The notes below the pieces were generated by a model. That model searched no databases. It was not told the DNA's origin and saw only the letters and a list, made by a program, of their open reading frames with translations. The translations under genes and the position numbers were made by a program. This document shows, in pieces, positions 7,619-24,145 of a DNA stretch of 32,691 nt; the first letter of the stretch is position 1, and every line of letters begins with the position of its first letter. The DNA is taken from positions 1-32,691 of the forward strand of contig JAXHVO010000136.1 of assembly GCA_034189135.1 (NCBI GenBank), written 5' to 3'. This DNA comes from Thermodesulfobacteriota bacterium (GTDB lineage Bacteria > Desulfobacterota > Desulfobacteria > Desulfobacterales > JAUWMJ01).

Positions 7619-8388
7619 CAGTCTATTGCCTCCTTGCCCAGATAAGCATCAATCACTTTAGGGTTGTTCTGTATTTCTTCCGGCGTACCTTCGGCAATTA
7701 CCTCGCCGAAAACCAGGGTCTGTATCTCCTGGCAAAGTTCCATAACCAGTTTCAACCGGTGTTCAATTAAGAAAATGGCCAGTCCGAATTCTTTATGAAC
7801 CTGACGAATGATTTCCATCATCTGAATCAGTTCTTCCGGGTTCATACCGGCGGTCGGCTCATCCAAAAAAAGGATCTTCGGTTCCATGGCCAGCGCCCTG
7901 GCCATTTCCACCCTTCTTTGAGCCCCGTAGGGAAGATTAAGCACATTCTCATGTGCCAGATCACTAATACCGACCAGTTTCAGCAGTCCATATGCTTTTT
8001 CTTCGGCTGCGGCCTCCTGCCTGTTTCGTTTTGCGGTTCCAAAAAAAGCCCCGGTCAACCCGTAAGTCATTTTCGAATACTGGGCCATGATCACATGCTC
8101 AAGAACGCTCATATGACGCCATAGCAGCAGATTTTGGAAAGTCCTACCGAGTCCGGCGGAAGCAATCTGGTGGGGCTGAAGTCCAACCAGATTCAGGTTT
8201 TCTAGTTCAACCGTTCCTTCGGTGGGTTGGTGAATGCCGGTTATCAGATTAAAAATAGTCGTTTTACCCGCTCCGTTGGGGCCGATCAGCCCCCTTATCT
8301 GACCCGGTTCAATAGTAAGATCATAGTTATACACAGCCCGCAGTCCGCCGAAATAGTGAGTCATTTTCTTTACCTGAAGCAAGGACAT
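7618..8388 (-). CDS. livG: Branched-chain amino acid ABC transporter ATPase LivG
   Basis: 256 aa. Walker A GPNGAGKTT (36-44) is followed by the LivG-typical IFNLITG. Other LivG marks are LGRTFQN, the signature-like region LPYGAQRRVEMARAL, Walker B ILFLDEPTAGMNP and the H-loop IEHRLKLVM. It is a cytoplasmic ATPase partner of LivF. It starts 1 base after the stop of livM, and AGAGG lies just upstream of the ATG. Confidence 0.95.
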   Translation of the reverse strand: MSLLQVKKMTHYFGGLRAVYNYDLTIEPGQIRGLIGPNGAGKTTIFNLITGIHQPTEGTVELENLNLVGLQPHQIASAGLGRTFQNLLLWRHMSVLEHVIMAQYSKMTYGLTGAFFGTAKRNRQEAAAEEKAYGLLKLVGISDLAHENVLNLPYGAQRRVEMARALAMEPKILFLDEPTAGMNPEELIQMMEIIRQVHKEFGLAIFLIEHRLKLVMELCQEIQTLVFGEVIAEGTPEEIQNNPKVIDAYLGKEAID

Positions 8389-8389
8389 A

Positions 8390-9697
8390 TTATACCTCTT
8401 CTCCCTTTTTCTTTTTAGGCTGAATCAATTTCTTCACGTTAAACTCCTTAAAGGCGATCAATCCTGTGGGACGGTAAATCATTACCAGGATCAAAAGCAG
8501 CGGAATGGCAATCCATTTAAAAAGCTCCAAAGGCCGCAGGGCTTCGCCAAGCACGCTGAGACTTACAGCGCCCACAATCGACCCGTACACCGAATTCAAG
8601 CCGCCGAAATAGACCATCGCCAAAACCTCGGCCAGTTTCTGAATGCCAAACGTTGCCGGGTTCACATAACCCAGCACATGGGCAAACAGCCCGCCGGCCA
8701 CACCGGCCCAAAATGCAGCAAACATGAAAGCCACCACCTTTGTACGCTTGGTGTTGACGGTCATTGCATTGGCAGCCGTTTCTTCATCCCGTACAGCATT
8801 TAGCGCCTTGCCAAGGGTGGAACGAACAAAGTTGTTGATTACCCAGATACAGACCACAGTCCAGATAAAAACGGTGGGCAAGTTGGCCCAGTTTGGCTGA
8901 CTGCTGAGTCCACGGGGTCCGCCCACGAATTCCATGTTTTCAACCAGACTTTTGACGATAAACATAAACGCCAGAGAGATGATCGCCAGGTAATCTCCCC
9001 GTGTTCTGAATGAAGGAATGGCGACGATCAATGCTCCCAGGGCGGCCACGCAACCACCCAGAATGAGTCCCAGGGGAAACAGAAACGGACCTATAAAGGA
9101 AGGCATAAGCGCTTGGCCAAACATGCTGTCGTTAACAAAAAGGGATACGGAAAAAACCGAAGCAGTATAAGCACCCAGAGCCATAAATCCAGGATGTGAA
9201 CAGGAAAATTCTCCCATGTAACCGTTGATTATGTTCAGACTTACGGTGACCATGATAGCGATCAGAGTAAATTTGAGCGTAATTAAACGGTAGTCACTCA
9301 CATCCGCCCAGATATGAAAAATGATATAAAGCAACACCAGATGGATAAATACCGATCCCGGCATGGAAAAATGGATTAGTTTTTCCGCCAGCCGGTTGGC
9401 CGGTGCAAGGCTCAACCGCGCAATAATGCCGATGGGTAAAATGAATATCAATAAAACGTAAAGCATGGTGCTGGGAACAAGCAACGGTTTTTTAAGCATG
9501 ATTAAGAAACCAAAAAGTGCCGGAATTTTAGGTAATCCCAAAGCCAGTGCCAGCTGTGTTCCCACCGCTTGTTCCAGGATAACCGCAATCATTGCACCAA
9601 AAAGCCACCCCAGAATCGGTACCATGGAAAACATCTCTATGATTTTACTTTTTAATCCTGTTTCAGGTGTAGATAATTCGCTACTTGTTACTTCCAT
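8390..9697 (-). CDS. livM: Branched-chain amino acid ABC transporter permease LivM
   Basis: 435 aa inner-membrane permease with about ten hydrophobic segments. It carries the LivM landmarks GYMGEFSCSHPGFMALGAY, SFRTRGDYLAIISLAF and GKALNAVRDEETAANAM (the ATPase-coupling loop). The C-terminal tail is strongly basic (KKLIQPKKKKGEEV). The start is set at the ATG at 9697, which has AAAGGG six bases ahead; an in-frame TTG at 9712 would add five residues and would consume that ribosome site. The N-terminal extension of about 120 residues before the core is longer than in short LivM proteins but similar to enteric LivM. Confidence 0.93.
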   Translation of the reverse strand: MEVTSSELSTPETGLKSKIIEMFSMVPILGWLFGAMIAVILEQAVGTQLALALGLPKIPALFGFLIMLKKPLLVPSTMLYVLLIFILPIGIIARLSLAPANRLAEKLIHFSMPGSVFIHLVLLYIIFHIWADVSDYRLITLKFTLIAIMVTVSLNIINGYMGEFSCSHPGFMALGAYTASVFSVSLFVNDSMFGQALMPSFIGPFLFPLGLILGGCVAALGALIVAIPSFRTRGDYLAIISLAFMFIVKSLVENMEFVGGPRGLSSQPNWANLPTVFIWTVVCIWVINNFVRSTLGKALNAVRDEETAANAMTVNTKRTKVVAFMFAAFWAGVAGGLFAHVLGYVNPATFGIQKLAEVLAMVYFGGLNSVYGSIVGAVSLSVLGEALRPLELFKWIAIPLLLILVMIYRPTGLIAFKEFNVKKLIQPKKKKGEEV

Positions 9698-9736
9698 TTG
9701 AATCCCTTTCAATAAAGAGCCAACTTGATCTCGTGA

Positions 9737-10660
9737 CTACAGTCTCAACTTGGCACTGTATGGCTCGCCAAAGAAGCCGTAAGGCCTGAAAACCAAAATA
9801 AGCAGTACAATTGAATAAGCGATTATATCCCTCAAGGTAGATGGAAAAATCATCGCCACAAAGATTTCAATAAACCCAAGTAAAAATCCCGCCAGAGTGG
9901 CCCCCATAATCGAGCCTCTTCCGCCTAATATCGCTGCCACAAAGGCTTTCCAGCCAAATAAAATTCCCATGTACGGATCGAGTACCGGATAAGCCACCCC
10001 GAAAAGAATACCGGCCACAGCGGCCAAAGCCGATCCAATGGCAAATGTCATGGCCGCAATACGGTTGATCGATACCCCCATCAAAGGTACCACCACAAAA
10101 TCAAAGGCCATGGCCCGCATGGCCATCCCCCAGCGGGTTTTTTTTATAAACAGATGCAACGCCAGCATAAAGGAAAGCGAAACGGCCACAATCATGATCT
10201 TTTTGTTGGTGATGAATACACCATTGACATTATAGGTCAGGGTTTCGATCAATGGAGGAAAGGATATCCGTTGAGTACCCACTCCCCACAGGACCAGCAT
10301 TTCGAGAATAATACCAATCATTAAACCGGTAATGGCTGCCGATGCACGCGGTGCCTCCCGTAGCGGACGATACCCCACACGCTCTACGAACATCCCCACA
10401 AAAGAAGTTAAGAACATGGAAAGAAGGATGGTCAGCACCAGCACAAACCATCCGGGCAAAGGAAGAGTCCACAGTGATGCCAGCGCCATCAAGCCTGTGG
10501 CAACACCAAACCCGATATAGGCCCCGACCATAAAAATATCGCCGTGCGCAAAATTAAACAGCATCATGATGCTGTAAACCATGGAGTATCCCAATGCGAT
10601 GAGTGCATAGAAACTGCCCCACTGTAAAGCGTTGATCAGGTTCTGAAAGAAAAATACCAT
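9737..10660 (-). CDS. livH: Branched-chain amino acid ABC transporter permease LivH
   Basis: 307 aa permease. Starting at MVFFFQNLINALQWGSFYAL it has the LivH hallmarks ALGYSMVYSIMMLFNFAHGD, GYRPLREAPR and a C-terminal RPYGFFG. About eight membrane segments are expected; it pairs with LivM. The start at 10660 is preferred because GAGAGGAAAG precedes it and because the upstream in-frame ATG (10732) would run through the intrinsic terminator at 10683-10722. The gap to livM is 39 bases when livM is started at 9697. Confidence 0.95.
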   Translation of the reverse strand: MVFFFQNLINALQWGSFYALIALGYSMVYSIMMLFNFAHGDIFMVGAYIGFGVATGLMALASLWTLPLPGWFVLVLTILLSMFLTSFVGMFVERVGYRPLREAPRASAAITGLMIGIILEMLVLWGVGTQRISFPPLIETLTYNVNGVFITNKKIMIVAVSLSFMLALHLFIKKTRWGMAMRAMAFDFVVVPLMGVSINRIAAMTFAIGSALAAVAGILFGVAYPVLDPYMGILFGWKAFVAAILGGRGSIMGATLAGFLLGFIEIFVAMIFPSTLRDIIAYSIVLLILVFRPYGFFGEPYSAKLRL

Positions 10661-10682
10661 CTTGCTTTCCTCTCGTTCTTTC

Positions 10683-10722
10683 AAAAAAGCGGGCTCAGGG
10701 TTTATCGCCCTGGCCCGCTTTT
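10683..10722 (-). terminator. Intrinsic terminator/attenuator between livK and livH
   Basis: Read on the minus strand: AAAAGCGGGCCAGGG, loop CGATAAA, CCCTGAGCCCGC, then a run of six T. The stem is about 15 bp with a single bulged A, GC-rich, directly followed by the T tract. It lies 91 bases after the livK stop and 22 bases before the livH start, within the operon. This is a classic way to make much more binding protein than membrane permease from one promoter. The A run on the other side makes it potentially bidirectional. Confidence 0.85.
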
Positions 10723-10813
10723 GATATGACATTTACAGGCTTTAAGCCTTTACGGACCTCAGGTCATCATATGAGATCTATCCTGCAATTTTTACTTATC
10801 GATTGCGCCCATC

Positions 10814-11989
10814 TTAGGGACAGATGGACTTGTAGAACTCGAACTCACCGGCATCGCTGATTCTGACGATAACGGCACATTTTTTCGGATCGCCTTCTTC
10901 GGTAAAAGTCATTTTACCGGTAATACCATCAAATTCCTTGATCTTAGCAAATGCATCCCGAATCCCCTGGCGGTCTTTTTTCAGGTCTCCGGTAATTGTT
11001 CCGTAAGATTCAATTGCTTTTTGTACCAGTCGTATGGCATCCCAGGTCAGAGCGCCGACATCGTCCGGAATATAACCGTGTTTTTTATTATACCTGTCGA
11101 TAAATTCCTTGGTGGCTCCCTTGGCCCCGGCGGCTGCATAGTGAGTACTGAAAAACTGCCCGTAGCAGTCTTTCCCGCACAGTTTAACGGTTTCTGCAGA
11201 ACCCCAGCTGTCGCTACCAACAATCGGTTTGTCCCATCCAAGCTGATGAGCCTGCTGTACGATTAAAGCCACTTCATTATAGTACTGCGGAGTAAACAGA
11301 AACTCAGCGCCTGATTTGATTATTTTTGTCAATTGTGAACTGAAATCAGCGTCTTTAGTGGTAAAGCTTTCATAGGCCACCACTGAACCGGCACCGTTCA
11401 GATCTTCCCAGGCTGCTTTAAAAAACTCGGCAAGACCTTTCGGATAGTCACTGGCCACGTCGTATAAAACCGCTGCCTTGGTATATCCGAATTCTTTCTT
11501 TACGAAATTGGCAACCACCGGACCCTGAAACGGATCAAGAAAACATCCCCGGAAAACAAATGGTCGGTCTTTGGTTGTTTTTGGGTTGGTCGACCAGGGG
11601 CTGATCATCGGGGTGTTGTACTTATTGGCCACTTCACCCGCAGGTACTGCTTGTTTGGAAGACTGGGGGCCCACAATCACCAGGACGTCATCCTCTGTAA
11701 TCATTTTGGTATTTGCCTTCACCGCCGATTCCGCTTTGGCCTCATTATCCTCTATGACCAGCTCTACCTTGTACTTTTTTTCCCCTACCTCAAGTCCGCC
11801 TGCAGCATTAATATCTTCAAGCCACATTTGGGCGGCAAACTTTGTTCCCTCCCCTACTTTGGGGATATCTCCGGTAATCGGAGCATTTATGCCAATCTTA
11901 ATCGTCGTTGGCTCCTTGGGACCACAAGCGAATACAATTAGACCCACCACCAGACAGCAAATAATACCTACAAATAGTCCTTTTTTCAT
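10814..11989 (-). CDS. livK: Branched-chain amino acid ABC transporter substrate-binding lipoprotein
   Basis: 391 aa periplasmic binding protein of the LivK/peripla_BP_6 type. The N-terminus MKKGLFVGIICCLVVGLIVF leads to a lipobox ending at Cys22 (VFAC, then GPKEP), so it is predicted to be lipid-anchored rather than free. The mature part opens with TIKIGINAPITGDIPKVGEG and contains VGPQSSKQAVPAGEVANKYN and PMISPWSTNPKTT, typical ligand-cleft segments. The AAAGGAGG ribosome site is strong. It lies 125 bases downstream of lpdA on the same strand, with its own terminator after it. Ligand not determinable; glycine or another amino acid is possible given the neighbours. Confidence 0.93.
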   Translation of the reverse strand: MKKGLFVGIICCLVVGLIVFACGPKEPTTIKIGINAPITGDIPKVGEGTKFAAQMWLEDINAAGGLEVGEKKYKVELVIEDNEAKAESAVKANTKMITEDDVLVIVGPQSSKQAVPAGEVANKYNTPMISPWSTNPKTTKDRPFVFRGCFLDPFQGPVVANFVKKEFGYTKAAVLYDVASDYPKGLAEFFKAAWEDLNGAGSVVAYESFTTKDADFSSQLTKIIKSGAEFLFTPQYYNEVALIVQQAHQLGWDKPIVGSDSWGSAETVKLCGKDCYGQFFSTHYAAAGAKGATKEFIDRYNKKHGYIPDDVGALTWDAIRLVQKAIESYGTITGDLKKDRQGIRDAFAKIKEFDGITGKMTFTEEGDPKKCAVIVRISDAGEFEFYKSICP

Positions 11990-12114: not shown

Positions 12115-13548
12115 TTATCCATGCAAAGATCTGTCAAGCGCCTTGAATGAAGTTTCCTGCATAACTTCAGAGAACGTGGGGTGCGCATGAATGGTGGCAG
12201 CCAGATCTTTTACACTGGATCCGCTCTTAATGGCCAGTGTGCCTTCGGCAATAAGATCGGTTGCGTGCGATCCGACAATGTGAACACCTAAAATTCTACC
12301 GGTGTCAACATCTGATACTATCTTTGCCATACCGGCAATTTCTCCCACAACCTGTGCCTTTCCCATTGCCCGGAAAAGAACACTGTCTGAACGTACGCGA
12401 TCATTTATCTGTTTTGCCTGCGATTCTGTCAGCCCGACGTTTGCTATTTCCGGTGTGGTAAAAATTGCACCGGGCACAGCAGTATAGTCCATCTTTTTAC
12501 TCCCTTGCATGGCATTTTCTGCCGCAACAAGGCCTTCCGCAGAGGCAACGTGTGCAAGCATAACTTTTGCCGGTCCGAGGACATCACCAATGGCATACAC
12601 CCCTGCAATATTGGTTTCCATCTTCTCATTGGCAATGACCCATCCCTTTTCGTCCACATGAACCCCTATGTTTTCAAGGCCGAGGTGATCGGTACTCGGT
12701 TTACGTCCAACACATACCAAAATCTTTTCCACTCTCTCGATTTTGGGTTCTTCGTCTTTTGGAGAAATATTCTCCAAAAAAGGCGAGGGCCCTATTGTTA
12801 CAGCAAGACTGCTCTCTTGATCTTCAACCGATTCCACACTTCTGTTAACCAAAAACTTAATTTTTCGCTTTTTCATTTCACGCTGCAAAATCTTTGAGCA
12901 ATCTTCATCAACGGATGGAAGCGGCAACATCCTTGACAAAGCCTCCACCACAGTCACTTTGCAACCAAGTGCGGCGAGCACAAATGCAAACTCACAACCG
13001 ATAACTCCACCTCCGACAATGAGTATTGATTGCGGAATTTGGCGCAGGCTAAGCGCTTCGTTGCTCGATATAATCCGATCCCCGTCAAAGGGTATCGATG
13101 AAAGGCTTATCGGGTATGACCCAATGGCTAAAATCAGACCGTCATAAGATATTTCTGCGGTATTCCCGTCCTCATATTTTACCGTGGTCCGTCCCGGCTC
13201 CTCGATAAATCCTTTTGCTTTCAGATATTGAATCCTATTTTTTTCCAAAAGCTTATTAATCCCTTGGGCCTGGCTTTTAATCACCTTTTCCTTCCGATCC
13301 ATCAGTTTTGGTAAGTCCGGCATAACCGACCCCATTGACCGGATACCAAATTCTTCGGCTCTTCTGAAGTTTTCCAGCATCTTGGCGGTGTGAATCAATA
13401 TTTTAGAAGGAATACAACCCCAGTTTAAACATGTCCCGCCCACACTCTCCTTTTCAATAAGGGTCACTTCGCCACCAAGCTGGGCAGCACGTATTGCAGC
13501 AATATACCCGCCGGGGCCGGAGCCGATTACAGTTATTTTTCTTGCCAT
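12115..13548 (-). CDS. lpdA: Dihydrolipoamide dehydrogenase (glycine cleavage L protein)
   Basis: 477 aa flavoprotein disulfide reductase. FAD motif GSGPGGYIAAIRAAQLG (9-25), redox-active disulfide GGTCLNWGCIPSK (Cys40 and Cys45), NAD-binding GGGVIGCEFAFVLAALG, second FAD motif GVYAIGDV, and C-terminal HAHPTFSE with the catalytic His456-Glu461 pair. It reoxidises the dihydrolipoyl arm of carrier proteins with NAD+. It is transcribed divergently from the glycine-cleavage genes across a 226-base intergenic region, and no 2-oxoacid dehydrogenase genes are near, so serving GcvH is the natural reading. GAGAGG lies 11 bases before the ATG. Confidence 0.96.
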   Translation of the reverse strand: MARKITVIGSGPGGYIAAIRAAQLGGEVTLIEKESVGGTCLNWGCIPSKILIHTAKMLENFRRAEEFGIRSMGSVMPDLPKLMDRKEKVIKSQAQGINKLLEKNRIQYLKAKGFIEEPGRTTVKYEDGNTAEISYDGLILAIGSYPISLSSIPFDGDRIISSNEALSLRQIPQSILIVGGGVIGCEFAFVLAALGCKVTVVEALSRMLPLPSVDEDCSKILQREMKKRKIKFLVNRSVESVEDQESSLAVTIGPSPFLENISPKDEEPKIERVEKILVCVGRKPSTDHLGLENIGVHVDEKGWVIANEKMETNIAGVYAIGDVLGPAKVMLAHVASAEGLVAAENAMQGSKKMDYTAVPGAIFTTPEIANVGLTESQAKQINDRVRSDSVLFRAMGKAQVVGEIAGMAKIVSDVDTGRILGVHIVGSHATDLIAEGTLAIKSGSSVKDLAATIHAHPTFSEVMQETSFKALDRSLHG

Positions 13549-13774: not shown

Positions 13775-16423
13775 ATGCCAAAACTTAATCGAACCATTTT
13801 TTATGAACGGCATGTAAAGCTCGGGGCCAATATGGTAGAATTTGCCGGCTGGGAAATGCCGATTCAGTATGATGGGGGAATCGTCCAGGAGCATCTTGCT
13901 ACCAGAAAGCATGCCGGCCTTTTTGACGTTTCCCACATGGGCCGCTTTGTGATCAGCGGGAAAGACTCGCTGGCTTTTCTGCAGCATGTTCTTTCCAACA
14001 ATGCGGCGGCCCTCGAACTAGAAGAAAGCCAGTACACCATTATCCCCAACAAGCAGGGTGGTGCGATCGATGATGCCTATCTTTACCGCTTTGTGGAGGA
14101 TGAATATCTGTTGGTGGTGAACGCCTCAAATCGGGAAAAGGACTGGAACCATTTAAACCAGCACCGGAAAAATTTCAACGAGGTAAAACTGGTTGATCGC
14201 ACTGCCGATCTGATCATGATCAGCCTACAGGGTCCTTTATCAAAAAATATCCTTTTGGGTGTTATAGATTCCGGGCATCTACCTGAACCACAGAGAAATT
14301 GTCTGGCAACCGATGCCATAAAAGGCGCCAAAGTCCAAATCGCAAGAACCGGATACACCGGAGAGCCCATCTGTTTCGAACTCTTTGTGAACACCGAAAA
14401 TTCATTGATGATCTGGGATCTATTGATAGAATGTGGCGCTCAGCCTGTCGGCCTTGGAGCCAGGGATACCTTGAGGCTTGAAGCATGTCTTCCTCTGTAT
14501 GGACACGAATTGGGAGACGATCCTGAAAACAACGAAATTCCCATTTTTGCATCGAGTCTTTCCAAATTTGCAGTCAGTTTATCACCCTTAAAGAAAAATT
14601 TTGTCGGCCGCGAGGCCCTGGAAAAACAATTTAATGCTCTGAAGAAAATAATAAATGACGACTTTTCTCTCATCACAGACCTCCCGCGCATGATCATGCC
14701 GGTAGCCATAGTCGGCAAAGGACTGGCCCGCAGCGGATATAAGGTTTTCCATAACGGTCACCACGTCGGATATGTAACCAGCGGTACCATGGTCCCCTAC
14801 TGGAAGTATGAAGGGATCGGTATTTCCTCCAAAATTACGGATGAAAAAGGGCTGCGGGCAATCTGTCTGGCATTTATAAACAGCGACCTTAGCGAAGGGG
14901 ATGAACTGCAGCTAGAAATCAGGAACAAAATGACGCCAGCAGTGGTCGTTCCCTACCATATGAGAAGCGAGGCCCCGCCTTTTGCCCGGGCTATTTTCCA
15001 TGATCAGATCAGACAGGAAAAAGCGGATTTCCCAAACAAAGAAGCGGTAAAAAAGGTCCGTTCATTGCTTGATAAAACCATTGAAAATACAATCTGGCGA
15101 CAGCATGAATGTATCAATCTTATTCCATCGGAGCAGACCCCTTCTAAGATGGTAAAACTTCTTTCGATTATGGACCCTGTCGGTCGTTATGCCGAACATA
15201 AACAGGTGATGGCTTTCAACGAAGCCGAAGTCTTTTACTACCAGGGAACCGAGTTCATTGCCAGAGTTGAAGAACTGCTGGAAAATGAATTGCGCCATTA
15301 CCTTGAATGTACCGAGGTGGAAACACGCCCTGTCTCAGGTCAGATGGCAAATACAGCGTTATTCAGTGCAATGGTGGATTTTTTAAACCGGGCGGACAGG
15401 AAAAGCGAACAAAGGAGAATCCGCAACGTATTAAATAACCACATTATCAAAGGCGGTCATCTCAGCGCACAGCCCATGGGCGCTCTGCGAGATTTTGTCG
15501 CCCGCAATCCCAAATGGGAAAAGCCTGCTGTGGTTAATTTTCCGGTTCATGAGGATAATTCTTATAAAATAGATGTGGACGCCTGCAAAAATGTGATTGA
15601 AGAGCACCAACCTGAACTGATTATTTTCGGCAAAAGCATGACCTTACATAAGGAACCTGTGGCTCAAATACGGTCATTTGTTGATGACCTGTCCATTGAC
15701 TGTGTCATTTTATATGATATGGCCCATGTTCTTGGCCTGGTGGGACCTTATTTCCAGCAGCCTTTTAAGGAGGGAGCCGATATCGTTACCGGATCTACCC
15801 ATAAGACATTTTATGGTACCCAGCGGGGAATAATCGGGTCGAACTATACAGATGAAGATCTGCGTTACGAATTATGGGAAGCCATACAACGCAGGGCTTT
15901 TCCAGGCAGTGTCAGCAACCACCATCTTGGCACTATGCTCGGTCTGCTGATGGGCGCTTATGAAATGAATTACTTCAAGGATGAATACCAACGGAAAGTA
16001 CATTCAAATGCAAAAGCCTTTGCAAAAGCTCTGAAGCAGTGCGGCCTTGATGTTGCCGGAGATCCCGATATCTCATATACTGAAACCCACCAGGTGATCC
16101 TTAATGTTGGCTATTCCAAAGGTCCTGAACTTGCGCAACGACTTGAACAGAATAATATCATAGTCAATTACCAGGCAGCCCCTGATGAAGAAGGTTTTAC
16201 CGCATCCGGATCTTTACGAATGGGGGTACAGGAGATGACCCGCTTCGGCATGGCAGAAAGAGATTTTCAAAAACTGGCCCAGATTATTTACGATGTGGTA
16301 GCCGGAAATAAAGGAGTTAAAGAAGAGGTTAAATCTTTTAGAAACGCTTTTAGCGACATGCAGTTTTGTTTTTCAACAAACGATTTTGACGACCTTATAC
16401 AAAAGCTGCATACACTGATATGA
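13775..16423 (+). CDS. Fused aminomethyltransferase (GcvT)-serine hydroxymethyltransferase-like protein
   Basis: 882 aa with two enzyme domains in one uninterrupted frame. Residues 1-405 are a complete T protein: GANMVEFAGWEMPIQY (18-33), DVSHMG (51-56), the catalytic-region IDD (98-100), the folate-site GYTGE (193-197) and ARDTLRLEACLPLYGHEL (229-246). After a short linker, residues 425-845 are a fold-type I PLP enzyme of the SHMT family: NLIPSE (448-453), RYAE (471-474), FYYQGTEF (487-494), GGHLS (560-564), DMAH (648-651), STHKT with PLP Lys677, and LRMGVQEMTRFGM (814-826). The T half releases methylene-THF from the lipoyl arm of GcvH; an SHMT half would use it to make serine. The PLP loop HKTFYGTQRG differs from the usual HKTLRGPRGG. 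A ribosome site GAAAGGGGAC lies 12 bases before the ATG. Confidence 0.93.
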   Translation: MPKLNRTIFYERHVKLGANMVEFAGWEMPIQYDGGIVQEHLATRKHAGLFDVSHMGRFVISGKDSLAFLQHVLSNNAAALELEESQYTIIPNKQGGAIDDAYLYRFVEDEYLLVVNASNREKDWNHLNQHRKNFNEVKLVDRTADLIMISLQGPLSKNILLGVIDSGHLPEPQRNCLATDAIKGAKVQIARTGYTGEPICFELFVNTENSLMIWDLLIECGAQPVGLGARDTLRLEACLPLYGHELGDDPENNEIPIFASSLSKFAVSLSPLKKNFVGREALEKQFNALKKIINDDFSLITDLPRMIMPVAIVGKGLARSGYKVFHNGHHVGYVTSGTMVPYWKYEGIGISSKITDEKGLRAICLAFINSDLSEGDELQLEIRNKMTPAVVVPYHMRSEAPPFARAIFHDQIRQEKADFPNKEAVKKVRSLLDKTIENTIWRQHECINLIPSEQTPSKMVKLLSIMDPVGRYAEHKQVMAFNEAEVFYYQGTEFIARVEELLENELRHYLECTEVETRPVSGQMANTALFSAMVDFLNRADRKSEQRRIRNVLNNHIIKGGHLSAQPMGALRDFVARNPKWEKPAVVNFPVHEDNSYKIDVDACKNVIEEHQPELIIFGKSMTLHKEPVAQIRSFVDDLSIDCVILYDMAHVLGLVGPYFQQPFKEGADIVTGSTHKTFYGTQRGIIGSNYTDEDLRYELWEAIQRRAFPGSVSNHHLGTMLGLLMGAYEMNYFKDEYQRKVHSNAKAFAKALKQCGLDVAGDPDISYTETHQVILNVGYSKGPELAQRLEQNNIIVNYQAAPDEEGFTASGSLRMGVQEMTRFGMAERDFQKLAQIIYDVVAGNKGVKEEVKSFRNAFSDMQFCFSTNDFDDLIQKLHTLI

Positions 16424-16883: not shown

Positions 16884-17327
16884 ATGAAAATAGATGATAT
16901 AAACGTTGAGATTATCAAAAACCTCCGTGATGGCAGAAAATCCTTTAAAAAAATTGCTAACATACTGAACATCACCGAAAATACCGTTCGATCGCGGGTA
17001 AACAAACTGACGAGCGAAGGTATACTGGAAACCACAGGCCTGGTAGACCCGGAAGTCATGCCCGACCATCGGGTCGTGTTTGTCGGCGTAAAATTATCCA
17101 CCTTTAATCTTGTTGAGAAAGGAAAGGAGTTCAGCAAATTAAAAGGGGTGGTGTCAGTAAGCGTGGTGACAGGACGCTTTGACCTTATCCTGGTGGTTTT
17201 ATTAAAAAGAGGGTTCGATCTGCTGGAGTTTTATACTCAGGAGGTTTACCAGCTTGATGGCGTTCGTTCGGTGGAAACTTTTGTGGTATATAAGGGATAC
17301 AACCTGAAGGTGCCCTATATACTCTAA
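16884..17327 (+). CDS. Lrp/AsnC-family transcriptional regulator
   Basis: 147 aa. Residues 1-50 form the AsnC-type winged helix-turn-helix (DDINVEIIKNLRDGRKSFKK, then IANILNITENTVRSRVNKL). Residues about 66-140 form the RAM ligand-binding domain, including VVSVSVVTGRFDLILVVLL. Such regulators sense amino acids and control their metabolism. Its position between the two gcvT genes and ahead of gcvH-gcvPA-gcvPB suggests it controls glycine cleavage, perhaps in response to glycine, serine or a branched-chain amino acid; this is inference. The ribosome site is weak (GAG in AGAGTAAACC). Confidence 0.9.
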   Translation: MKIDDINVEIIKNLRDGRKSFKKIANILNITENTVRSRVNKLTSEGILETTGLVDPEVMPDHRVVFVGVKLSTFNLVEKGKEFSKLKGVVSVSVVTGRFDLILVVLLKRGFDLLEFYTQEVYQLDGVRSVETFVVYKGYNLKVPYIL

Positions 17328-17504: not shown

Positions 17505-18782
17505 ATGGAAAAAGAAGTAAAAATGACGTTGCTGCATGAATGGCATGTTAATCGAGGTGCCAATATGGCGCAGTTCGGTGAATATGATATGCCGCTTTGG
17601 TACCCAACTGGCGTTAGAAGCGAACATCTTTCGGTACTTACCAACGCCGGTATTTTTGACACCAGCCATATGGCTGTGGTAATGATTGACGGATCCGACG
17701 CCCGGGATCTGCTTCAGCATTGTTTTTCTAATAACCTGGATGCCTGCATCGGAAAGCAGCAAAATCCGTTGATTCCGGGAAAATGCGTGTACGGAGTTTT
17801 TTTGAGAGATACCGGTGACGTCATCGATGATGCCATTGTATTTCAAATTGATGAGTCAATTTACATGGTGGTGGTTAATGCCGGAATGGGGAATGCGATC
17901 AGTACTCACTTGTTGGACCATGCAGGCCGTAGTAACGTAGACATTACCGATCTGACCGACAAATTAGGCAAGCTGGATGTGCAAGGTCCTTTTGCTGCAA
18001 AAATCCTCATTAAGGTGTTGAAAAGCCCCCAAACCGTGTTTGACAAGCTGCCGTATTTTTCCTTCAAAGGTCATTTTGATCCAAGTTCGACTGCGGCTAA
18101 AACCGTGCTTCTTTCCGACGGAACACCCATTTTGCTTTCCCGTACCGGTTATACCGGTGAATTCGGTTTTGAAATTTTTGTCGAACCGGATCACTTCACC
18201 CGAACCTGGGATATACTTGTTGAAGCCGGAAATGAATTCGGACTGGTGGCCTGTGGCCTGGCTGCCAGAGATTCCCTCAGAGCCGGTGCCGTGTTGCCGC
18301 TTTCACACCAGGATATCGGCCCATGGCCTTTTCTTTATAATCCGTGGCCATTTGCCCTGGCGTATAATGCTGATTTCTCGGGATTCACCAAACAGTTCAT
18401 CGGCAGCGAGTCGCTTTTAAAAACAGATTATAGTGAGCACACCCTTCCCTTTGCCGGTTACGACCTTCGCAAGGTGTCCACCCACAACCAGGCAATTGTC
18501 ACAGATGATAACGACAAACAAATCGGCAAAGTGCTGACATGTGCCACTGACATGGCAATCGGACGTCACAACGACCGGATTTACAGCATCGCCAGCCCGG
18601 ACAAACCGAAAAATTTTAATCCGCGAGGACTCTGCTGCGGCTTTGTTAAAACCGCCGTCCGGTTATCACCAGGTCAAACAGTGACCATAAATGACAACCG
18701 CCGGAAAATCAAAGTTGAAATTGCAAACGACCTGCGCCCGAACCGAACCGCACGTCTGGCACTGTCCAAGTTCTTGAATTAG
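17505..18782 (+). CDS. Second, divergent GcvT-family aminomethyltransferase
   Basis: 425 aa, a full-length GcvT-family protein. NRGANMAQFGEYDMPLWYP (17-35), DTSHMA (52-57), IDDAIVF (107-113), GYTGEFGFEIF (215-225) and AARDSLRAGAVLPLSHQDIG keep the folate-binding framework and the aspartate pair. It departs from standard T proteins where LRLEAGLPLYGHD is expected and in the following NPWPFALAYN segment. Its C-terminal half has an insertion also seen in the GcvT half of the fusion. Start at 17505 follows GGGGGTC by a few bases; an ATG at 17523 is also possible. It could be the T protein serving this P/H set, or a relative acting on another methylamine-type donor. GcvT family: sure; exact reaction: not. 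Confidence 0.85.
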   Translation: MEKEVKMTLLHEWHVNRGANMAQFGEYDMPLWYPTGVRSEHLSVLTNAGIFDTSHMAVVMIDGSDARDLLQHCFSNNLDACIGKQQNPLIPGKCVYGVFLRDTGDVIDDAIVFQIDESIYMVVVNAGMGNAISTHLLDHAGRSNVDITDLTDKLGKLDVQGPFAAKILIKVLKSPQTVFDKLPYFSFKGHFDPSSTAAKTVLLSDGTPILLSRTGYTGEFGFEIFVEPDHFTRTWDILVEAGNEFGLVACGLAARDSLRAGAVLPLSHQDIGPWPFLYNPWPFALAYNADFSGFTKQFIGSESLLKTDYSEHTLPFAGYDLRKVSTHNQAIVTDDNDKQIGKVLTCATDMAIGRHNDRIYSIASPDKPKNFNPRGLCCGFVKTAVRLSPGQTVTINDNRRKIKVEIANDLRPNRTARLALSKFLN

Positions 18783-18925: not shown

Positions 18926-19324
18926 ATGAAAGAAATAGCTGAATTGAATCTGCCGGATGATTTGCGTTATGCAAAAGACCATGAATGGGCAAAGCTCGAA
19001 GGTGACAAGGTTAAAATAGGTATTGACGACTATGCCCAGGACCAGCTTGGCGATATCGTTTTCGTAGAATTACCCGAAGCGGGCACCACATTCTCCCAGG
19101 GGGAGGAATTTGGTACCGTAGAATCGGTTAAAGCGGTTTCCGAGCTTTTCATGCCCGTCGGAGGAGAAATTGTGGCAATCAATACCTCCCTGGAAGAAAC
19201 CCCGGAACACGTCAACAACAGTCCTTACCAAGACGGATGGATGATCGAGGTCAAGCCGAGTGATGTGGCGGAAATGGACGCCCTTATGGATAAAGAGGCA
19301 TATATAAAAATGCTGAAAGGATAA
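18926..19324 (+). CDS. gcvH: Glycine cleavage system H protein
   Basis: 132 aa lipoyl carrier. KDHEWAKLEGDKVKIGIDDY (17-36) and the lipoylation site GTVESVKAVSEL with Lys69 are canonical; NNSPYQDGWMIEVKPSD near the end is also typical. The lipoyl arm shuttles the aminomethyl group from P to T and is reoxidised by L. A very strong AAAGGAGGA ribosome site precedes the ATG, fitting the need for excess H protein. gcvPA follows after 5 bases. The 143-base gap from the gcvT gene upstream is AT-rich and shows no clear promoter or terminator. Confidence 0.98.
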   Translation: MKEIAELNLPDDLRYAKDHEWAKLEGDKVKIGIDDYAQDQLGDIVFVELPEAGTTFSQGEEFGTVESVKAVSELFMPVGGEIVAINTSLEETPEHVNNSPYQDGWMIEVKPSDVAEMDALMDKEAYIKMLKG

Positions 19325-19329
19325 AACCT

Positions 19330-20661
19330 ATGCGCTATTTACCACATACAGATGCAGATATTGCATCAATGCTTAAAGTTGTCGGAGCAGACAATCTGGA
19401 GGGACTTTTTCCCACCGTTCCTAAAGACTGTCGCTGCACCGACGATCTCAAATTACCTAAACCGTTAACGGAATGGGAACTCAACAGCTCTATAGACATG
19501 CTGGCAGGAAATGTGGCTGTATCTCCGGAATATAAAATTTTTATCGGAGCAGGGAGTTACGAGCATTTTATTCCTTCAAGTGCATCTTACCTGCTCAGTC
19601 GCTCCGAGTTTGTCACATCGTACACCCCGTACCAGCCGGAAATGAGCCAGGGAACCTTACAGGCAATCTTTGAATACCAAACCCTGATATCCCGGCTTCT
19701 GGGAATGGAAGTGGCCAATGCATCCCTTTACGACGGGGCTTCCGCCCTTGCTGAAGCGCTCCTTATGGCTGCCCGTGTCAATCGCCAGAATAAAATCGCC
19801 GTGTCAGGCCTGATTCACCCCATGTACCGCCGTGTACTCGAAACTTACCTTAAGCCCACCGGGTTCGAAATAATTGAACTGCCTTATGTTGAAAACGGCA
19901 GAACTGATCTAACCCCTGTTGACGGAATGGAAGGACTTGCCGCCGTGGCCGTACAATCTCCCAACTTTTTCGGGTGCGTGGAAGATCTTAAGGCCATTGG
20001 TGAAAAAGCCCATGAGAAAAAAGCACTTTTTATTACTTCTTTCACTGAACCGCTGGCTTACGGCCTGTTAAAAAACCCGGGAAACCTGGGTGCTGACATT
20101 GCCTGCGGTGAAGGTCAGAGTATGGGTATCCCGCGATCTTTCGGTGGACCGGCTCTGGGAATGTTTGCCGCCAAAATGAAGTATGTGCGAAACATGCCGG
20201 GACGACTGGTGGGTGAAACCAAGGACAAAGACGGAAAAAGAGGTTTTGTTTTAACTCTGGCCACCCGTGAACAGCACATCCGTCGGGAAAAGGCCACATC
20301 CAACATATGCACCAACAGCGGGCTCTGCGCACTGGCGTCTGCTATTTACATGGCCTCGGTTGGGGGTACGGGCATACGCGAGCTGTCCCAACTGAATCAT
20401 GACAAGGCGGCATATCTTAAATCAGAACTTGAAAAAGCAGGATTTGCCATTCCCTTTAACAGCCCTTTCTTTAACGAATTTGTAGTTAAATTTCCTGCCG
20501 GCTTTGAGACAACCTACCAGCGATTGCTCGAAAAAAAGATTGTTGCCGGCCTGCCCCTTGCTTCCTATTATCCCGAACTTGAAGATCATTATCTTATGTG
20601 TGTGACGGAAACAAGGTCAAAAGAAGATATCGATATCCTGGTCAGGGAGGTGAAATCATGA
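19330..20661 (+). CDS. gcvPA: Glycine dehydrogenase (decarboxylating) subunit 1
   Basis: 443 aa, the N-terminal half of P protein in the two-subunit form. It opens with MRYLPHTDADIASML and contains FIGAGSYEHFIPS, TPYQPEMSQGTLQAIFEYQT and EGQSMGIPRSFGGPALGMFA. The PLP-binding lysine belongs to the partner subunit. Together the subunits decarboxylate glycine and load the aminomethyl group onto lipoyl-GcvH. Its TGA overlaps the ATG of gcvPB as ATGA, ensuring balanced synthesis of the two subunits. Confidence 0.97.
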   Translation: MRYLPHTDADIASMLKVVGADNLEGLFPTVPKDCRCTDDLKLPKPLTEWELNSSIDMLAGNVAVSPEYKIFIGAGSYEHFIPSSASYLLSRSEFVTSYTPYQPEMSQGTLQAIFEYQTLISRLLGMEVANASLYDGASALAEALLMAARVNRQNKIAVSGLIHPMYRRVLETYLKPTGFEIIELPYVENGRTDLTPVDGMEGLAAVAVQSPNFFGCVEDLKAIGEKAHEKKALFITSFTEPLAYGLLKNPGNLGADIACGEGQSMGIPRSFGGPALGMFAAKMKYVRNMPGRLVGETKDKDGKRGFVLTLATREQHIRREKATSNICTNSGLCALASAIYMASVGGTGIRELSQLNHDKAAYLKSELEKAGFAIPFNSPFFNEFVVKFPAGFETTYQRLLEKKIVAGLPLASYYPELEDHYLMCVTETRSKEDIDILVREVKS

Positions 20662-22115
20662 AAGAATCTTTAGGCACAACCGGTCTCATACTAAACGAAC
20701 CCTTGCTCTGGGAAAAGGGCAAAAAAGGACGGTACGGGTTTTCCATTCCCCGCCGTGATGTCGATCGTTTTCCCCTGGACGAAAATGTAGCGGGTGACGG
20801 TCCCGACTTTCCCGATCTGAGCGAAGTGGATGTGGTTCGCCATTATACAAGACTGTCGCAGTGGAATTTCGGTGTGGACACCGGAATGTATCCCCTGGGA
20901 TCATGTACCATGAAATATAACCCGAAAACCAATGAAAGACAGGCAAGCCAGCCCGGATTTGCCGGAGCACACCCTCTGCTCCCCACTGGACTGACCCAGG
21001 GCGCGCTGAGGCTGATGTTCGAACTGGAAGACTTCCTGGCTGAAATAACCGGCATGGATGCAGTCACGCTTCAGCCTGCTGCAGGTGCCCATGGTGAACT
21101 TGCCGGAATGCTTCTGATATGGGCCTTTCATAAAGACAAAGGACAGAACCGCTCAAAAATTATTGTTCCTGACACCGCACACGGGACAAACCCTGCCAGT
21201 GCATCTTTGTGCGGCTTTCGCTCCGTGCCGGTAAAATCTAACCAACAGGGAGTGCTTTCTGTCGAAGCGGTGGCTGAAATTATGGACGAAGAGACCGCCG
21301 GGATCATGGTCACCAATCCCAACACCCTGGGTCTTTTCGAAGAAAACATTATAAAAATTGCCGATATTGTTCATTCCAAAGGTGGTCTGGTATACTGCGA
21401 CGGTGCAAATATGAATGCGGTAATGGGTATTGCAGACATGGGAAAAATCGGTATCGATGTTTTACATCTCAATCTCCACAAAACGTTCTCCACACCTCAC
21501 GGTGGCGGAGGTCCTGGTGCCGGACCGGTGTGTGTGAAAAAACAACTTGAACCTTTTTTACCGGTTCCCCGTATCCGCTCTAAAGATAATAAATACTCTA
21601 TTTCGTTTGATTACCCTAAATCTATCGGCAAACTGCATGCCTTTTACGGCAATTTCGGTGTCATGGTAAAAGCCTACAGTTACATTCTCAGCATGGGTGC
21701 GTCAGGGCTGAAAAAGGCCAGCAGCCTGGCTGTACTGAATGCCAATTATATCAAGGAAAAACTCAAAGATACTTTTCACCTGCCGTACGACCGGCCATGT
21801 ATGCATGAATGTGTTTTTTCCGATAAAAATCAAGAGCCTGATAAAGTAACCACTCTCGATATCGTAAAGCGTCTGATCGATTACGGTTTTCATCCGCCCA
21901 CCATTTATTTCCCGCTGGTGGTGCATGGGGCAATAATGATCGAACCGACGGAAACCGAGTCCAAAGAAAACATTGACCTTTTCATCGATGCCCTGAAACA
22001 GGTTGTAACGGAGGCCAAAAAAGATTCCGAAATCCTGACACAGGCCCCAACGCGTACAAAAGTCAGAAGGCTTGATGAGACCAGCGCTGCGCGTCATCCC
22101 TGTCTTACAGGCTGA
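20658..22115 (+). CDS. gcvPB: Glycine dehydrogenase (decarboxylating) subunit 2
   Basis: 485 aa, the C-terminal half of P protein. It contains YPLGSCTMKYNPK (78-90), LQPAAGAHGELAGML (138-152), DTAHGTNPASA (172-182) and the PLP lysine Lys275 in LNLHKTFSTPHGGGGPGAG. The start at 20658 is fixed by GGGAGGTG just upstream and the ATGA overlap with gcvPA; a longer frame beginning at 20598 only reads through the end of gcvPA. The block of small palindromes and repeats downstream marks the end of the core gcv unit. Confidence 0.97.
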   Translation: MKESLGTTGLILNEPLLWEKGKKGRYGFSIPRRDVDRFPLDENVAGDGPDFPDLSEVDVVRHYTRLSQWNFGVDTGMYPLGSCTMKYNPKTNERQASQPGFAGAHPLLPTGLTQGALRLMFELEDFLAEITGMDAVTLQPAAGAHGELAGMLLIWAFHKDKGQNRSKIIVPDTAHGTNPASASLCGFRSVPVKSNQQGVLSVEAVAEIMDEETAGIMVTNPNTLGLFEENIIKIADIVHSKGGLVYCDGANMNAVMGIADMGKIGIDVLHLNLHKTFSTPHGGGGPGAGPVCVKKQLEPFLPVPRIRSKDNKYSISFDYPKSIGKLHAFYGNFGVMVKAYSYILSMGASGLKKASSLAVLNANYIKEKLKDTFHLPYDRPCMHECVFSDKNQEPDKVTTLDIVKRLIDYGFHPPTIYFPLVVHGAIMIEPTETESKENIDLFIDALKQVVTEAKKDSEILTQAPTRTKVRRLDETSAARHPCLTG

Positions 22116-22255: not shown

Positions 22256-23065
22256 ATGAACCTAAACCTGGCAACTACCGGCTCGCAACACGTAACTCGC
22301 AATCCGGAACCCGCAACCCGCAACCCGCTCCACGAAACCTGCTTATGCGTGGAATTGCCTGTGATTGATTATCAAAAGGCGAGGGATCTACAAAGCTATC
22401 TTGTATCCGCCAGAAAAGATAACATAATAGACTCGGATATGGTGATAATTCTGGAACACCCTCCGGTCTTTACTCTTGGCCGCCGGGGTGGACTTGAAAA
22501 TCTGAGCGTATCTGAATCTTTTCTAAAAAAATTGAAAATCCCGCTCATCCATGTGGAACGAGGGGGAAATATCACTTTTCACGGTCCCGGACAGATCGTG
22601 GTTTACCCTATTATTAACCTGGGAAAAGCCAGACTGGCTGTGACCGATTTTGTCAGTAACCTTGAGGAGGTCATGATTCAGACTGCTAAAGACTTAGGGG
22701 TTCAAGCACGGCGTAACGGTATAAACCGAGGCATATGGGTAGGAGAAAAAAAACTGGGAAGTATCGGAATAGCTGTTCGAAAAGGAATCAGTTTTCACGG
22801 CATGGCTCTAAATGTGAATCTGTCGCTTGAACCCTTTAACTGGATCAACCCCTGCGGATTGCAAAACATAAAGATGACCTCCATCCAGCAGGAACTTTCC
22901 CATTCTGTTTCTCTGTCTCACATCAGGCGGACGCTGAAACAGCATTTTGAATCGATCTTCGGGATAAAACTCGTGGCAACTGATATAAAAGAGTTATGCA
23001 GAAATTTTAACTTGAGTAGCATGTTGGAATTTAAAAGTGTCAAAAAAGAGCATAACGTTTTTTGA
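22256..23065 (+). CDS. lipB: Octanoyltransferase LipB with repeat-derived N-terminus
   Basis: 269 aa as read. The LipB fold begins at about residue 29 (CLCVELPVIDYQKARDLQ). It includes HPPVFTLGRRG (68-78), RGGNITFHGPGQIVVYPI (102-119), the catalytic lysine Lys166 in KKLGSIGIAV and the catalytic cysteine Cys200 in NPCGLQNIKMTS. LipB transfers octanoate from acyl carrier protein to the lipoyl domain, here most obviously GcvH Lys69. Residues about 10-26 are encoded by a heptamer DNA repeat and have no counterpart in the family. The only ATG upstream of the fold is at 22256, without a good ribosome site, so the real start may be a GTG or TTG just inside the conserved region (for example near 22352). 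The stop codon TGA is at the first bases of repeat copy B. Confidence 0.9.
   Translation: MNLNLATTGSQHVTRNPEPATRNPLHETCLCVELPVIDYQKARDLQSYLVSARKDNIIDSDMVIILEHPPVFTLGRRGGLENLSVSESFLKKLKIPLIHVERGGNITFHGPGQIVVYPIINLGKARLAVTDFVSNLEEVMIQTAKDLGVQARRNGINRGIWVGEKKLGSIGIAVRKGISFHGMALNVNLSLEPFNWINPCGLQNIKMTSIQQELSHSVSLSHIRRTLKQHFESIFGIKLVATDIKELCRNFNLSSMLEFKSVKKEHNVF
22284..22325. repeat. Degenerate CGCAACC heptamer tandem repeat inside the lipB frame
   Basis: Six consecutive seven-base units: CGCAACA, CGTAACT, CGCAATC, CGGAACC, CGCAACC, CGCAACC. Three units make 21 bases, so the translated TRNP motif recurs every seven residues. Similar CGCAACCCG strings are, from memory, an intergenic repeat type in this group of bacteria; here it lies inside the apparent 5' end of lipB. 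Confidence 0.85.
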
Positions 23066-23266: not shown

Positions 23267-24145
23267 ATGCTCACCACCATAAAACAACATAAACGAAAAC
23301 AAAAACCCCCCTGGCTTAAGCGGCACCTTCCAACCGGACCCGACTATGAGCAAATTAAAGCCCTTATTACTAAAGGCGGGCTGCACACAGTATGCCAGGA
23401 AGCAAAATGCCCCAATATCTGGGAGTGCTTTTCCAAACATACGGCCACATTTATGATTCTGGGATCTCGATGCACGCGCAATTGCAGATTTTGTGCCGTT
23501 GCTCATGGGCCGGCTGATGAACCCGATCCGAAAGAACCTGTGAGAGTAGCCAACGCGGCTCGTAAAATGGGTTTAAATTACGTGGTCATCACCTCTGTCA
23601 CCCGTGATGATCTTCCTGACGGCGGTGCTGTCTTTTTTTCCCAAACCTTACAGGAAATCCGAAAACAAATACCTGACGCACTGATAGAGATCCTCATACC
23701 CGATTTTCAGGGAAACCAACATGCCCTGAAAACGGTTCTTAAAGCCCGACCCGATGTGTTGAACCATAATATAGAAACCGTTCCGCGTCTGTATTCGACG
23801 GTTCGCCCTGAAGCAAACTACCAACGCTCCCTGGAGCTTTTACAACAAACCCGCCAATACGATCCGTCTATACCAACCAAATCAGGACTCATGCTCGGCC
23901 TGGGTGAACAGCCTGAGGAGATCACCGGGACTCTTGAAGATCTTTTCAACACCGGCTGTCGAATCTTAACGCTGGGACAGTATCTCCAGCCTTCAAAACA
24001 ACACCTTCAGGTTGAGCGTTTTGTTTCGCCGGAAGAATTTGACAACTGGAAAAAAACCGCCCTTGAAATCGGCTTTTCACAGGTGGCCGGCGGTCCTTTT
24101 GTTCGGAGCTCCTATCATGCAAAAGAGCTGTTTCAAAACCAGTGA
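23267..24145 (+). CDS. lipA: Lipoyl synthase
   Basis: 292 aa radical-SAM enzyme. The auxiliary cluster motif is Cys43-x4-Cys48-x5-Cys54 (CQEAKCPNIWEC); the radical-SAM motif is Cys69-x3-Cys73-x2-Cys76 (CTRNCRFC); the C-terminal RSSYHA motif is present. It inserts two sulfurs into protein-bound octanoate made by LipB, completing the lipoyl group needed by GcvH. No strong ribosome site is seen at the ATG (23267), and a 156-base repeat element separates it from lipB. The downstream hydrolase gene overlaps its end by 29 bases. Confidence 0.97.
   Translation: MLTTIKQHKRKQKPPWLKRHLPTGPDYEQIKALITKGGLHTVCQEAKCPNIWECFSKHTATFMILGSRCTRNCRFCAVAHGPADEPDPKEPVRVANAARKMGLNYVVITSVTRDDLPDGGAVFFSQTLQEIRKQIPDALIEILIPDFQGNQHALKTVLKARPDVLNHNIETVPRLYSTVRPEANYQRSLELLQQTRQYDPSIPTKSGLMLGLGEQPEEITGTLEDLFNTGCRILTLGQYLQPSKQHLQVERFVSPEEFDNWKKTALEIGFSQVAGGPFVRSSYHAKELFQNQ

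Follow-up and report, generated by a model that had tools for sequence, protein, structure and literature searches.

Proteins in which a GcvT-type domain is joined to some other domain are, of course, already known. In dimethylglycine oxidase and dehydrogenase, sarcosine oxidase, and trimethylamine N-oxide (TMAO) demethylase, it is the partner that supplies the GcvT-type domain with an imine or formaldehyde. Here, we describe a bacterial protein, P0001, in which the T protein of the glycine cleavage system (GcvT) is followed, in one polypeptide chain, by a domain of the serine hydroxymethyltransferase (SHMT) family. Its gene lies in a 32,691-nucleotide stretch of DNA from a Thermodesulfobacteriota bacterium. 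This stretch, called "the window" below, is the entire contig C136, from a draft genome of 4.6 Mb and 95.5% completeness. Judged by its sequence, P0001 is quite probably a bifunctional T protein and SHMT, with both halves working. It resembles the dimethylglycine, sarcosine, and TMAO enzymes (1pj5, 5l46, 1vrq, 9q59) in that the GcvT-type domain and its fused partner act on the same one-carbon unit. It differs in that its partner would consume the methylene-tetrahydrofolate (methylene-THF) that the T half makes.

The same net chemistry is known from plant photorespiration, where glycine decarboxylase and SHMT are separate proteins that together convert two glycines to serine, CO2, and NH3. The genes are separate as well in Desulfovibrio desulfuricans, where SHMT is DsvG11_2276 and the glycine cleavage system is DsvG11_0325-0328 (PMC7547702).

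Each half of P0001 also has relatives that stand alone. The T half is like GcvT (1wos, 3a8k) in its fold, in its motifs, and in an operon shared with the H and P proteins, the difference being the C-terminal SHMT-family domain. The SHMT half is like the SHMT of Methanocaldococcus jannaschii (4bhd, 4uqv) and its unfused bacterial relatives (for example, L054) in its fold, in its set of active-site residues, and in having Q in place of R235. With ordinary GlyA it shares the pyridoxal phosphate (PLP) site and the predicted reaction, whereas in the tree ordinary SHMTs form a separate, fully supported branch, and the GlyA of the window's own genome (L001) reaches only 65 bits against the fused half. 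The L-threonine transaldolase (7k34) has a similar SHMT-like fold, but the transaldolase profile TIGR04506 scores far below its cut-off in the fused half.

The fused reading frame and its two halves

The gene and its parts are as follows.

13775..16423, + strand: fused gene P0001, GcvT plus SHMT-family domain, encoding an 882-residue protein (Pfam, NCBIfam)
13775..14968, + strand: T-protein half, approximately residues 1-398, with a folate-binding domain (IDD at 98-100, GYTGE at 193-197) and a C-terminal barrel (GCV_T, GCV_T_C, TIGR00528, Foldseek)
14969..15034, + strand: linker, approximately residues 399-420 (about 22 residues), variable in sequence (model confidence, alignment of fusions)
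15035..16420, + strand: SHMT-family half, approximately residues 421-882, with PLP Lys677, DMAH at 648-651, GGH at 560-562, YAE at 472-474, and Arg815 (PF00464, residue table, Foldseek)

The frame from 13775 to 16423 translates to 882 residues with no internal stop. In it, Pfam places GCV_T at residues 9-249 (257.6 bits against a cut-off of 25.6), the best stretch of GCV_T_C at 315-341 (39.4 against 25.9), and SHMT (PF00464) at 433-838, where the gathering score is passed (132.3 against 27). The T half also lies above the NCBIfam equivalog cut-off for GcvT (TIGR00528, 280 bits against 235.85). The initial annotation, which was made from the letters alone, had described two domains in one open frame, with IDD, GYTGE, DMAH, and the PLP lysine at exactly the positions given above, joined by a short linker. 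All of this stands, the linker of about 22 residues giving way to a helix of the SHMT half that begins at residue 422.

That annotation also allowed that a stop or a frameshift might lie at the junction, which would have made the fusion an artefact. Here, the relatives provide the answer. P0001 was compared with a sample of 395 genomes from the phylum, the window's own genome included, and frames spanning the junction were found in 34 of them (31 at full length and three, in G045, G201, and G260, cut by the end of a contig). Because the frame crosses the same junction in 34 genomes from 13 family groups, the fusion is no accident of assembly, and an assembly or frameshift artefact can be ruled out.

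Both halves retain the residues expected of working enzymes. In the T half, the aspartate pair (D99, D100) and GYTGE (G193-E197) are invariant in all 32 of the fusions aligned, and the H, P, and L partners of a T protein are encoded near the fusion in the window. For the SHMT half, a table of 38 rows was made from 36 fusions and two SHMT halves cut off by contig ends, using the residue numbers that we take to be those of E. coli SHMT, placed on the alignment. At S35, Y55, E57, Y65, S97, H126, L127, S175, D200, H203, and K229, all 38 rows are identical to the E. coli enzyme. Y64 is retained in 37 (F in the other), and R363 in 37, the last row being cut. Thus, the residues that speak for membership in the SHMT family, the PLP lysine together with E57, Y65, H126, D200, H203, K229, and R363, are kept in every row that can be read.

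An AlphaFold2 model built on the 32 aligned fusions has a mean predicted local distance difference test (pLDDT) of 80. Foldseek finds T protein 1wos as the best match to the T half (template modelling (TM) score on the target 0.89) and M. jannaschii SHMT 4bhd as the best match to the SHMT half (0.84), followed by L-threonine transaldolase 7k34 (0.80) and then ordinary SHMTs. The pLDDT falls below 50 at residues 398-402, 413-420, 468-489, 559-565, and 710-713, which means that the model is poor over part of the SHMT active site.

Both halves thus look catalytically complete, and the reading that fits best is one in which glycine cleavage is coupled to the exchange of serine and glycine; to this extent, the proposal of the initial annotation that one-carbon units are coupled holds up. 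The N-terminal half would take the aminomethyl group from lipoyl-GcvH and deliver methylene-THF and ammonia, or run in reverse. The C-terminal half would be a PLP-dependent SHMT, of a lineage related to the M. jannaschii enzyme, that moves the methylene group between THF and glycine, with serine being made or broken. With the P, H, and L proteins, the sum would be the interconversion of two glycines with serine, CO2, and NH3, with both folate steps on one polypeptide. The benefit of the tether would be a local hand-over of labile methylene-THF. The two activities, this benefit, and the direction of flux are all things that we infer.

Distribution, genome content, and lineage

In what follows, "fusion genomes" are the 34 with a junction-spanning frame plus G321, which has the SHMT half alone, at a contig end, for a total of 35. 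The window's order supplies five carriers among its 17 sampled genomes. Two other genomes represent the window's genus. One of these (G001) carries the fusion at 89% identity, its first 17 residues being off the contig, and the other (G002, 75% complete) gave no match to the fusion. Carriers with names are Desulfobacteraceae CSMAG_2445 (L012), Desulfobacteraceae UBA2156 (L015), Desulfobacterales HyVt-363 (L014), and Deltaproteobacteria AB_69_Bin_102 (L013). The initial annotation had pointed to similar fused annotations in Desulfobacteraceae and left it to a search to say which taxa share the fusion; this proves correct, and the search extends the list to the 13 family groups. One apparent three-domain version, L082 (1107 residues), was rejected, as its 226 additional residues at the N terminus appear, on inspection by eye, to be read-through of an upstream frame in G+C-rich DNA.

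A second sample, of 301 genomes, came from the phylum of L019 (Dehalococcoidia, hence Chloroflexota). Here, a single genome (G666) has the fusion (L153, G666:C220), on a 4.3 kb contig whose frame corresponds to P0001 residues 4-599, crosses the junction, and is cut by the contig end. This may possibly be a transfer, or a stray contig.

What else these genomes encode bears more directly on function. In the phylum sample, PF00464 is matched in 377 of 390 genomes (321 of the 325 of good quality) and in 342 of the 355 genomes that have no fusion, all 35 fusion genomes lying within the 390. It is also matched in all 14 control genomes. In 23 of the 35, the fusion is the only PF00464 match; these are all 13 genomes of family group f18, all seven of f30, and G370, G178, and G161. 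Of the 23, 15 reach 90% completeness or more with contamination of 5% or less. Each of the remaining 12 fusion genomes has at least one further match. That the fused half is so often the sole SHMT match is natural, if indirect, evidence that it performs the SHMT reaction. Neither this point, which does not extend to the window's own genome, nor the distinct lineage of the SHMT half was part of the initial annotation.

The T half presents a similar picture. In 32 of the 35 fusion genomes it is the sole T protein of GcvT size (PF01571), the exceptions being the window's genome (a second GcvT-like gene), G045 (a 379-residue frame), and G321 (T half off the contig); other PF01571 matches are frames of approximately 770-1000 residues or small pieces. 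GDC-P is matched in 33 of the 35, with no match in G217 and G194.

The lineage of the SHMT half was examined in trees that are unrooted and that do not contain the archaeal M. jannaschii protein itself. The name "M. jannaschii-type" is used for the unfused bacterial relatives because L054 scores 363 bits with 4uqv and 190 with the next solved SHMT. These group together at 90/76, the place of L057 being unsure. Unfused SHMTs of this type (L053-L056, L058-L066) replace GlyA as the only PF00464 match in several genomes (for example, G036, G162, G073, and G296). HyVt-363 and UBA2156 have, besides the fusion, a 436-residue PF00464 match that has the score of an M. jannaschii-type protein (about 202-206 bits) and may be one. 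A further unfused protein, L002 (G000:C7:14323-15456), from the window's genome, sits on a long branch, has T, F, and H at E. coli positions Y55, Y64, and Y65, and passes the SHMT subfamily profile taken up below.

The 38 fused or contig-cut SHMT rows form one clade, supported at 99/98 with L152 included and at 89/88 without it. L152 and L067 are an unfused sister form, 64-66% identical to one another and about 55% identical to the fusions. L152 (8848-10290, - strand), from the Chloroflexota sample, is an unfused protein of 480 residues with no reference gcv gene in its 19 kb. L067 falls outside the fused clade, beside this Chloroflexota-sample copy, and may not belong to its genome, G079, as that assembly has 8.9 Mb and 8% contamination. 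The simplest reading of these sequences would have an unfused SHMT of this type come first, followed by one fusion event.

For the T proteins, little of the branching order of fused and unfused forms appears to be settled by the trees. Among the unfused T proteins of the phylum sample, the highest scores go to f12 (57% identical), followed by f20 and f26 (43-47%). It is tempting to see in f12 the state before fusion. However, the f12 T halves nest among the fused ones, and a tree holding the fusions together without f12 is rejected (approximately unbiased test, p 0.0018). This contradicts f12 as a pre-fusion state and points to a later loss or split there. The f12 proteins L068 and L069 are T proteins of the fusion's kin with no SHMT half attached; in one f12 genome, G003, an M. 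jannaschii-type SHMT is the only SHMT match.

Weighing the reaction of the SHMT half and the purpose of the tether

Several observations weigh against the view that the C-terminal half is an SHMT that serves its T half. Residue N347, which we take to be a folate contact of E. coli SHMT, is Q in all 37 readable rows of the table; the 14 ordinary and the 15 M. jannaschii-type rows all have N. S99 is likewise Q across the fusions, and the (folate) loop between E57 and Y64 is seven residues longer in them. The fusions further have Y at K346 (F in one row) and, ahead of GGH, an insertion that contains a KSEQRRIR-like stretch. These features, together with the place behind GcvT, set the fused half apart from the M. 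jannaschii type; Q at R235 is common to both. The unfused L067 has the YAEH form, Q at N347, and the second insertion also, with a shorter folate loop, and L152 reads like it. The features that these two share with the fusions therefore need not stem from fusion.

The profiles agree in setting the fused type apart. The SHMT subfamily profile NF000586 has a cut-off of 335, which is missed by P0001 (249.8 bits for the whole protein, 252.5 for the half alone) and by the unfused sisters L152 (265.4) and L067 (258.1). It is passed by the M. jannaschii-type L053 (407.8) and L054 (404.9), as well as by the two other SHMT-family genes of the window's own genome, L001 (632.6) and L002 (543.2). Thus, the fused type stands further from known SHMTs than does the M. 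jannaschii type, which leaves room for another substrate.

The argument from genome content also has its weak points. The window's own genome has L001 and L002 besides the fusion. Genomes with no SHMT match do exist (13 of 390, four of them of good quality), one of these four being G095 of f30, which has no fusion match either. G370, G178, and G161 may simply have gaps, as members of their families have an SHMT of ordinary score; the robust set of genomes with the fusion as only SHMT is then f18 and f30, 20 genomes in all. Last, PF01212, presumably the family that holds threonine aldolases, is matched below 1e-90 in 28 of the 35 fusion genomes and in 21 of the 23 that have no other SHMT. Glycine could therefore be obtained without SHMT.

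In a rival reading, the C-terminal half would be a related aldolase or transaldolase, acting on threonine, phenylserine, or another beta-hydroxy amino acid to supply the cleavage system with glycine, with THF no substrate at all. The missed subfamily cut-off, the change at N347, and the remodelled folate loop speak for this, as does the fact that 7k34 is the next solved relative after the M. jannaschii enzyme in sequence (112 bits), as it is in structure. Yet E57, Y65, H126, L127, and the other listed residues are retained in all rows, 23 of the 35 genomes have no SHMT match besides this half, and in 28 of the 35 the separate PF01212 protein is itself a candidate threonine aldolase. The transaldolase profile TIGR04506 requires 650 bits and gives the fused half 121.5-123.6, no higher than the ordinary SHMT L001 (130.5). 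We consider this alternative distinctly unlikely. Less likely by far is a catalytically dead domain with a regulatory or scaffolding role. Only the presence of a second SHMT in the window's genome speaks for such a role. A dead domain is made improbable by a residue table in which the PLP lysine and the catalytic residues persist in all readable rows (with Y64 once F), and by the 23 genomes that have no other SHMT match.

A bifunctional T protein and SHMT, the preferred reading, can of course work in more than one way. In its boldest form, the T site would pass its methylene-THF straight on to the SHMT site over a tether of constrained length, neither free methylene-THF nor formaldehyde would appear, and all SHMT flux in f18 and f30 would be bound to the glycine cleavage system. 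In its most modest form, both halves work and the fusion merely equalizes their amounts, with methylene-THF diffusing freely. The initial annotation had proposed structure prediction to look for a tunnel between the folate sites; AlphaFold2 gives both folds, but places the halves relative to one another with low confidence (predicted TM score 0.56), which counts for equal amounts. So do the unfused L067 and L152 and the lone T half of f12, as neither half then needs the other in every genome. On the other side stands the stretch at 403-437 (the linker and the helix that opens the SHMT half), which is 33-36 residues long in all 32 fusions (34 in 22 of them) at a mean pairwise identity of 29%, compared to 61% for the T core, 49% for the C-terminal part of the T half, and 66% for the SHMT part. 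Constant length with so little constancy of sequence suggests a geometric constraint, and is the sole hint of fixed geometry that the sequences offer. For the linker proper, the constraint is weaker than these lengths suggest, however, because the helix from 422 is the SHMT half's own. Equal amounts we hold to be an evenly balanced proposition; direct hand-over, with all that it entails, is doubtful, though a proposal to be kept.

Direction is a separate matter, compatible with either form. The initial annotation had suggested the reductive glycine route, in which CO2, NH3, and methylene-THF give glycine and then serine. P and H are indeed encoded beside the fusion, GDC-P is nearly constant in fusion genomes, and the route is known in D. 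desulfuricans (with the separate genes noted in PMC7547702). Nevertheless, nothing specific to this route emerged in its support, formate dehydrogenase and formate-THF ligase lying outside the genes searched for. CdhC (acetyl-CoA synthase) is matched in 33 of 35 fusion genomes compared to 262 of 385 in the phylum sample (some matches being weak), so that the Wood-Ljungdahl route is likely, and another source and sink of methylene-THF is probable in these genomes. A link between the fusion and acetyl-CoA synthase is suggestive only, as relatives are not independent. Further, the transporter and regulator adjacent to the fusion (listed below) fit the use of amino acids at least equally well. The reductive route is an unlikely role.

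Gene neighbourhood and significance

The genes that surround the fusion in the window are these.

6905-11989: branched-chain amino-acid type ABC transporter, divergently upstream of the fusion, with a permease (9737-10732) and a binding protein (10814-11989) found by Pfam, and three other frames assumed from position
12115..13548, - strand: dihydrolipoyl dehydrogenase (L protein, lpd), divergent neighbour (TIGR01350, 509.9 bits, cut-off 408.8)
16884..17327, + strand: Lrp/AsnC-type regulator, separating the fusion from the remaining gcv genes (PF01037, PF13404)
17505..18782, + strand: second, divergent GcvT-like protein of 425 residues (PF01571, 205.3 bits; below the NCBIfam GcvT cut-offs)
18926..19324, + strand: GcvH, with an ESVKA stretch (TIGR00527, 167.4 bits, cut-off 115.85)
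19330..20661, + strand: GcvPA (NF001696, 607.1 bits, cut-off 364)
20598..22115, + strand: GcvPB (NF003346, 718.2 bits, cut-off 441)
22256..23065, + strand: LipB, octanoyltransferase (TIGR00214, 171.5 bits, cut-off 83.55)
23267..24145, + strand: LipA-like radical SAM protein, lipoyl synthase (PF04055, PF16881)

The ESVKA stretch of GcvH is presumably its lipoylation motif. The second GcvT-like protein retains IDD and GYTGE despite its score; among the loci compared, its gene is present only in the window and in the contig L012 of the same genus.

The association with gcvH, gcvPA, and gcvPB recurs in L012-L015. Immediately after the fusion, L013 and L014 have gcvH, gcvPA, gcvPB, and lipB (L014 also has lipA), and L015 has the same order after its contig-cut SHMT half. 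In L012, as in the window, the regulator and the second GcvT-like gene intervene before gcvH. Among 20 further stretches with the fusion, nine (L076, L078, L080-L083, L085, L090, L092) have gcvH or gcvP, and one (L091) has lipA only. The other ten (L073-L075, L077, L079, L084, L086-L089), among which several stretches are short or stop close to the gene, have none of H, PA, PB, LipA, LipB, and Lpd. The unfused SHMT relatives L053-L066 have no reference gcv genes within the stretches fetched.

A search of titles and abstract openings in the open-access literature, a scope that leaves most subscription journals and all of bioRxiv outside, brought up no account of such a fusion. In a 2026 survey that covers both pathways in Desulfobacterota, GCST and SHMT are listed separately, and a term search of its text gave no hit for "fused," "fusion," gcvT, or glyA (PMC12827605). 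Where gcvT and glyA are counted as separate genes, a survey may misjudge the pathways of genomes that carry the fusion.

Here, a single protein of a broad group of bacteria unites two enzymes that are usually described separately, and it holds the sole SHMT match in 23 of the 35 fusion genomes. This makes the fusion a natural test case for the hand-over of methylene-THF between enzymes, as well as a candidate part for engineered glycine/serine routes. The loss of methylene-THF to formaldehyde has been reported as a by-product of glycine cleavage (PMC7227101). If the hand-over is true, glycine and serine would be interconverted in these bacteria with no release of free methylene-THF or of formaldehyde, into which it breaks down.

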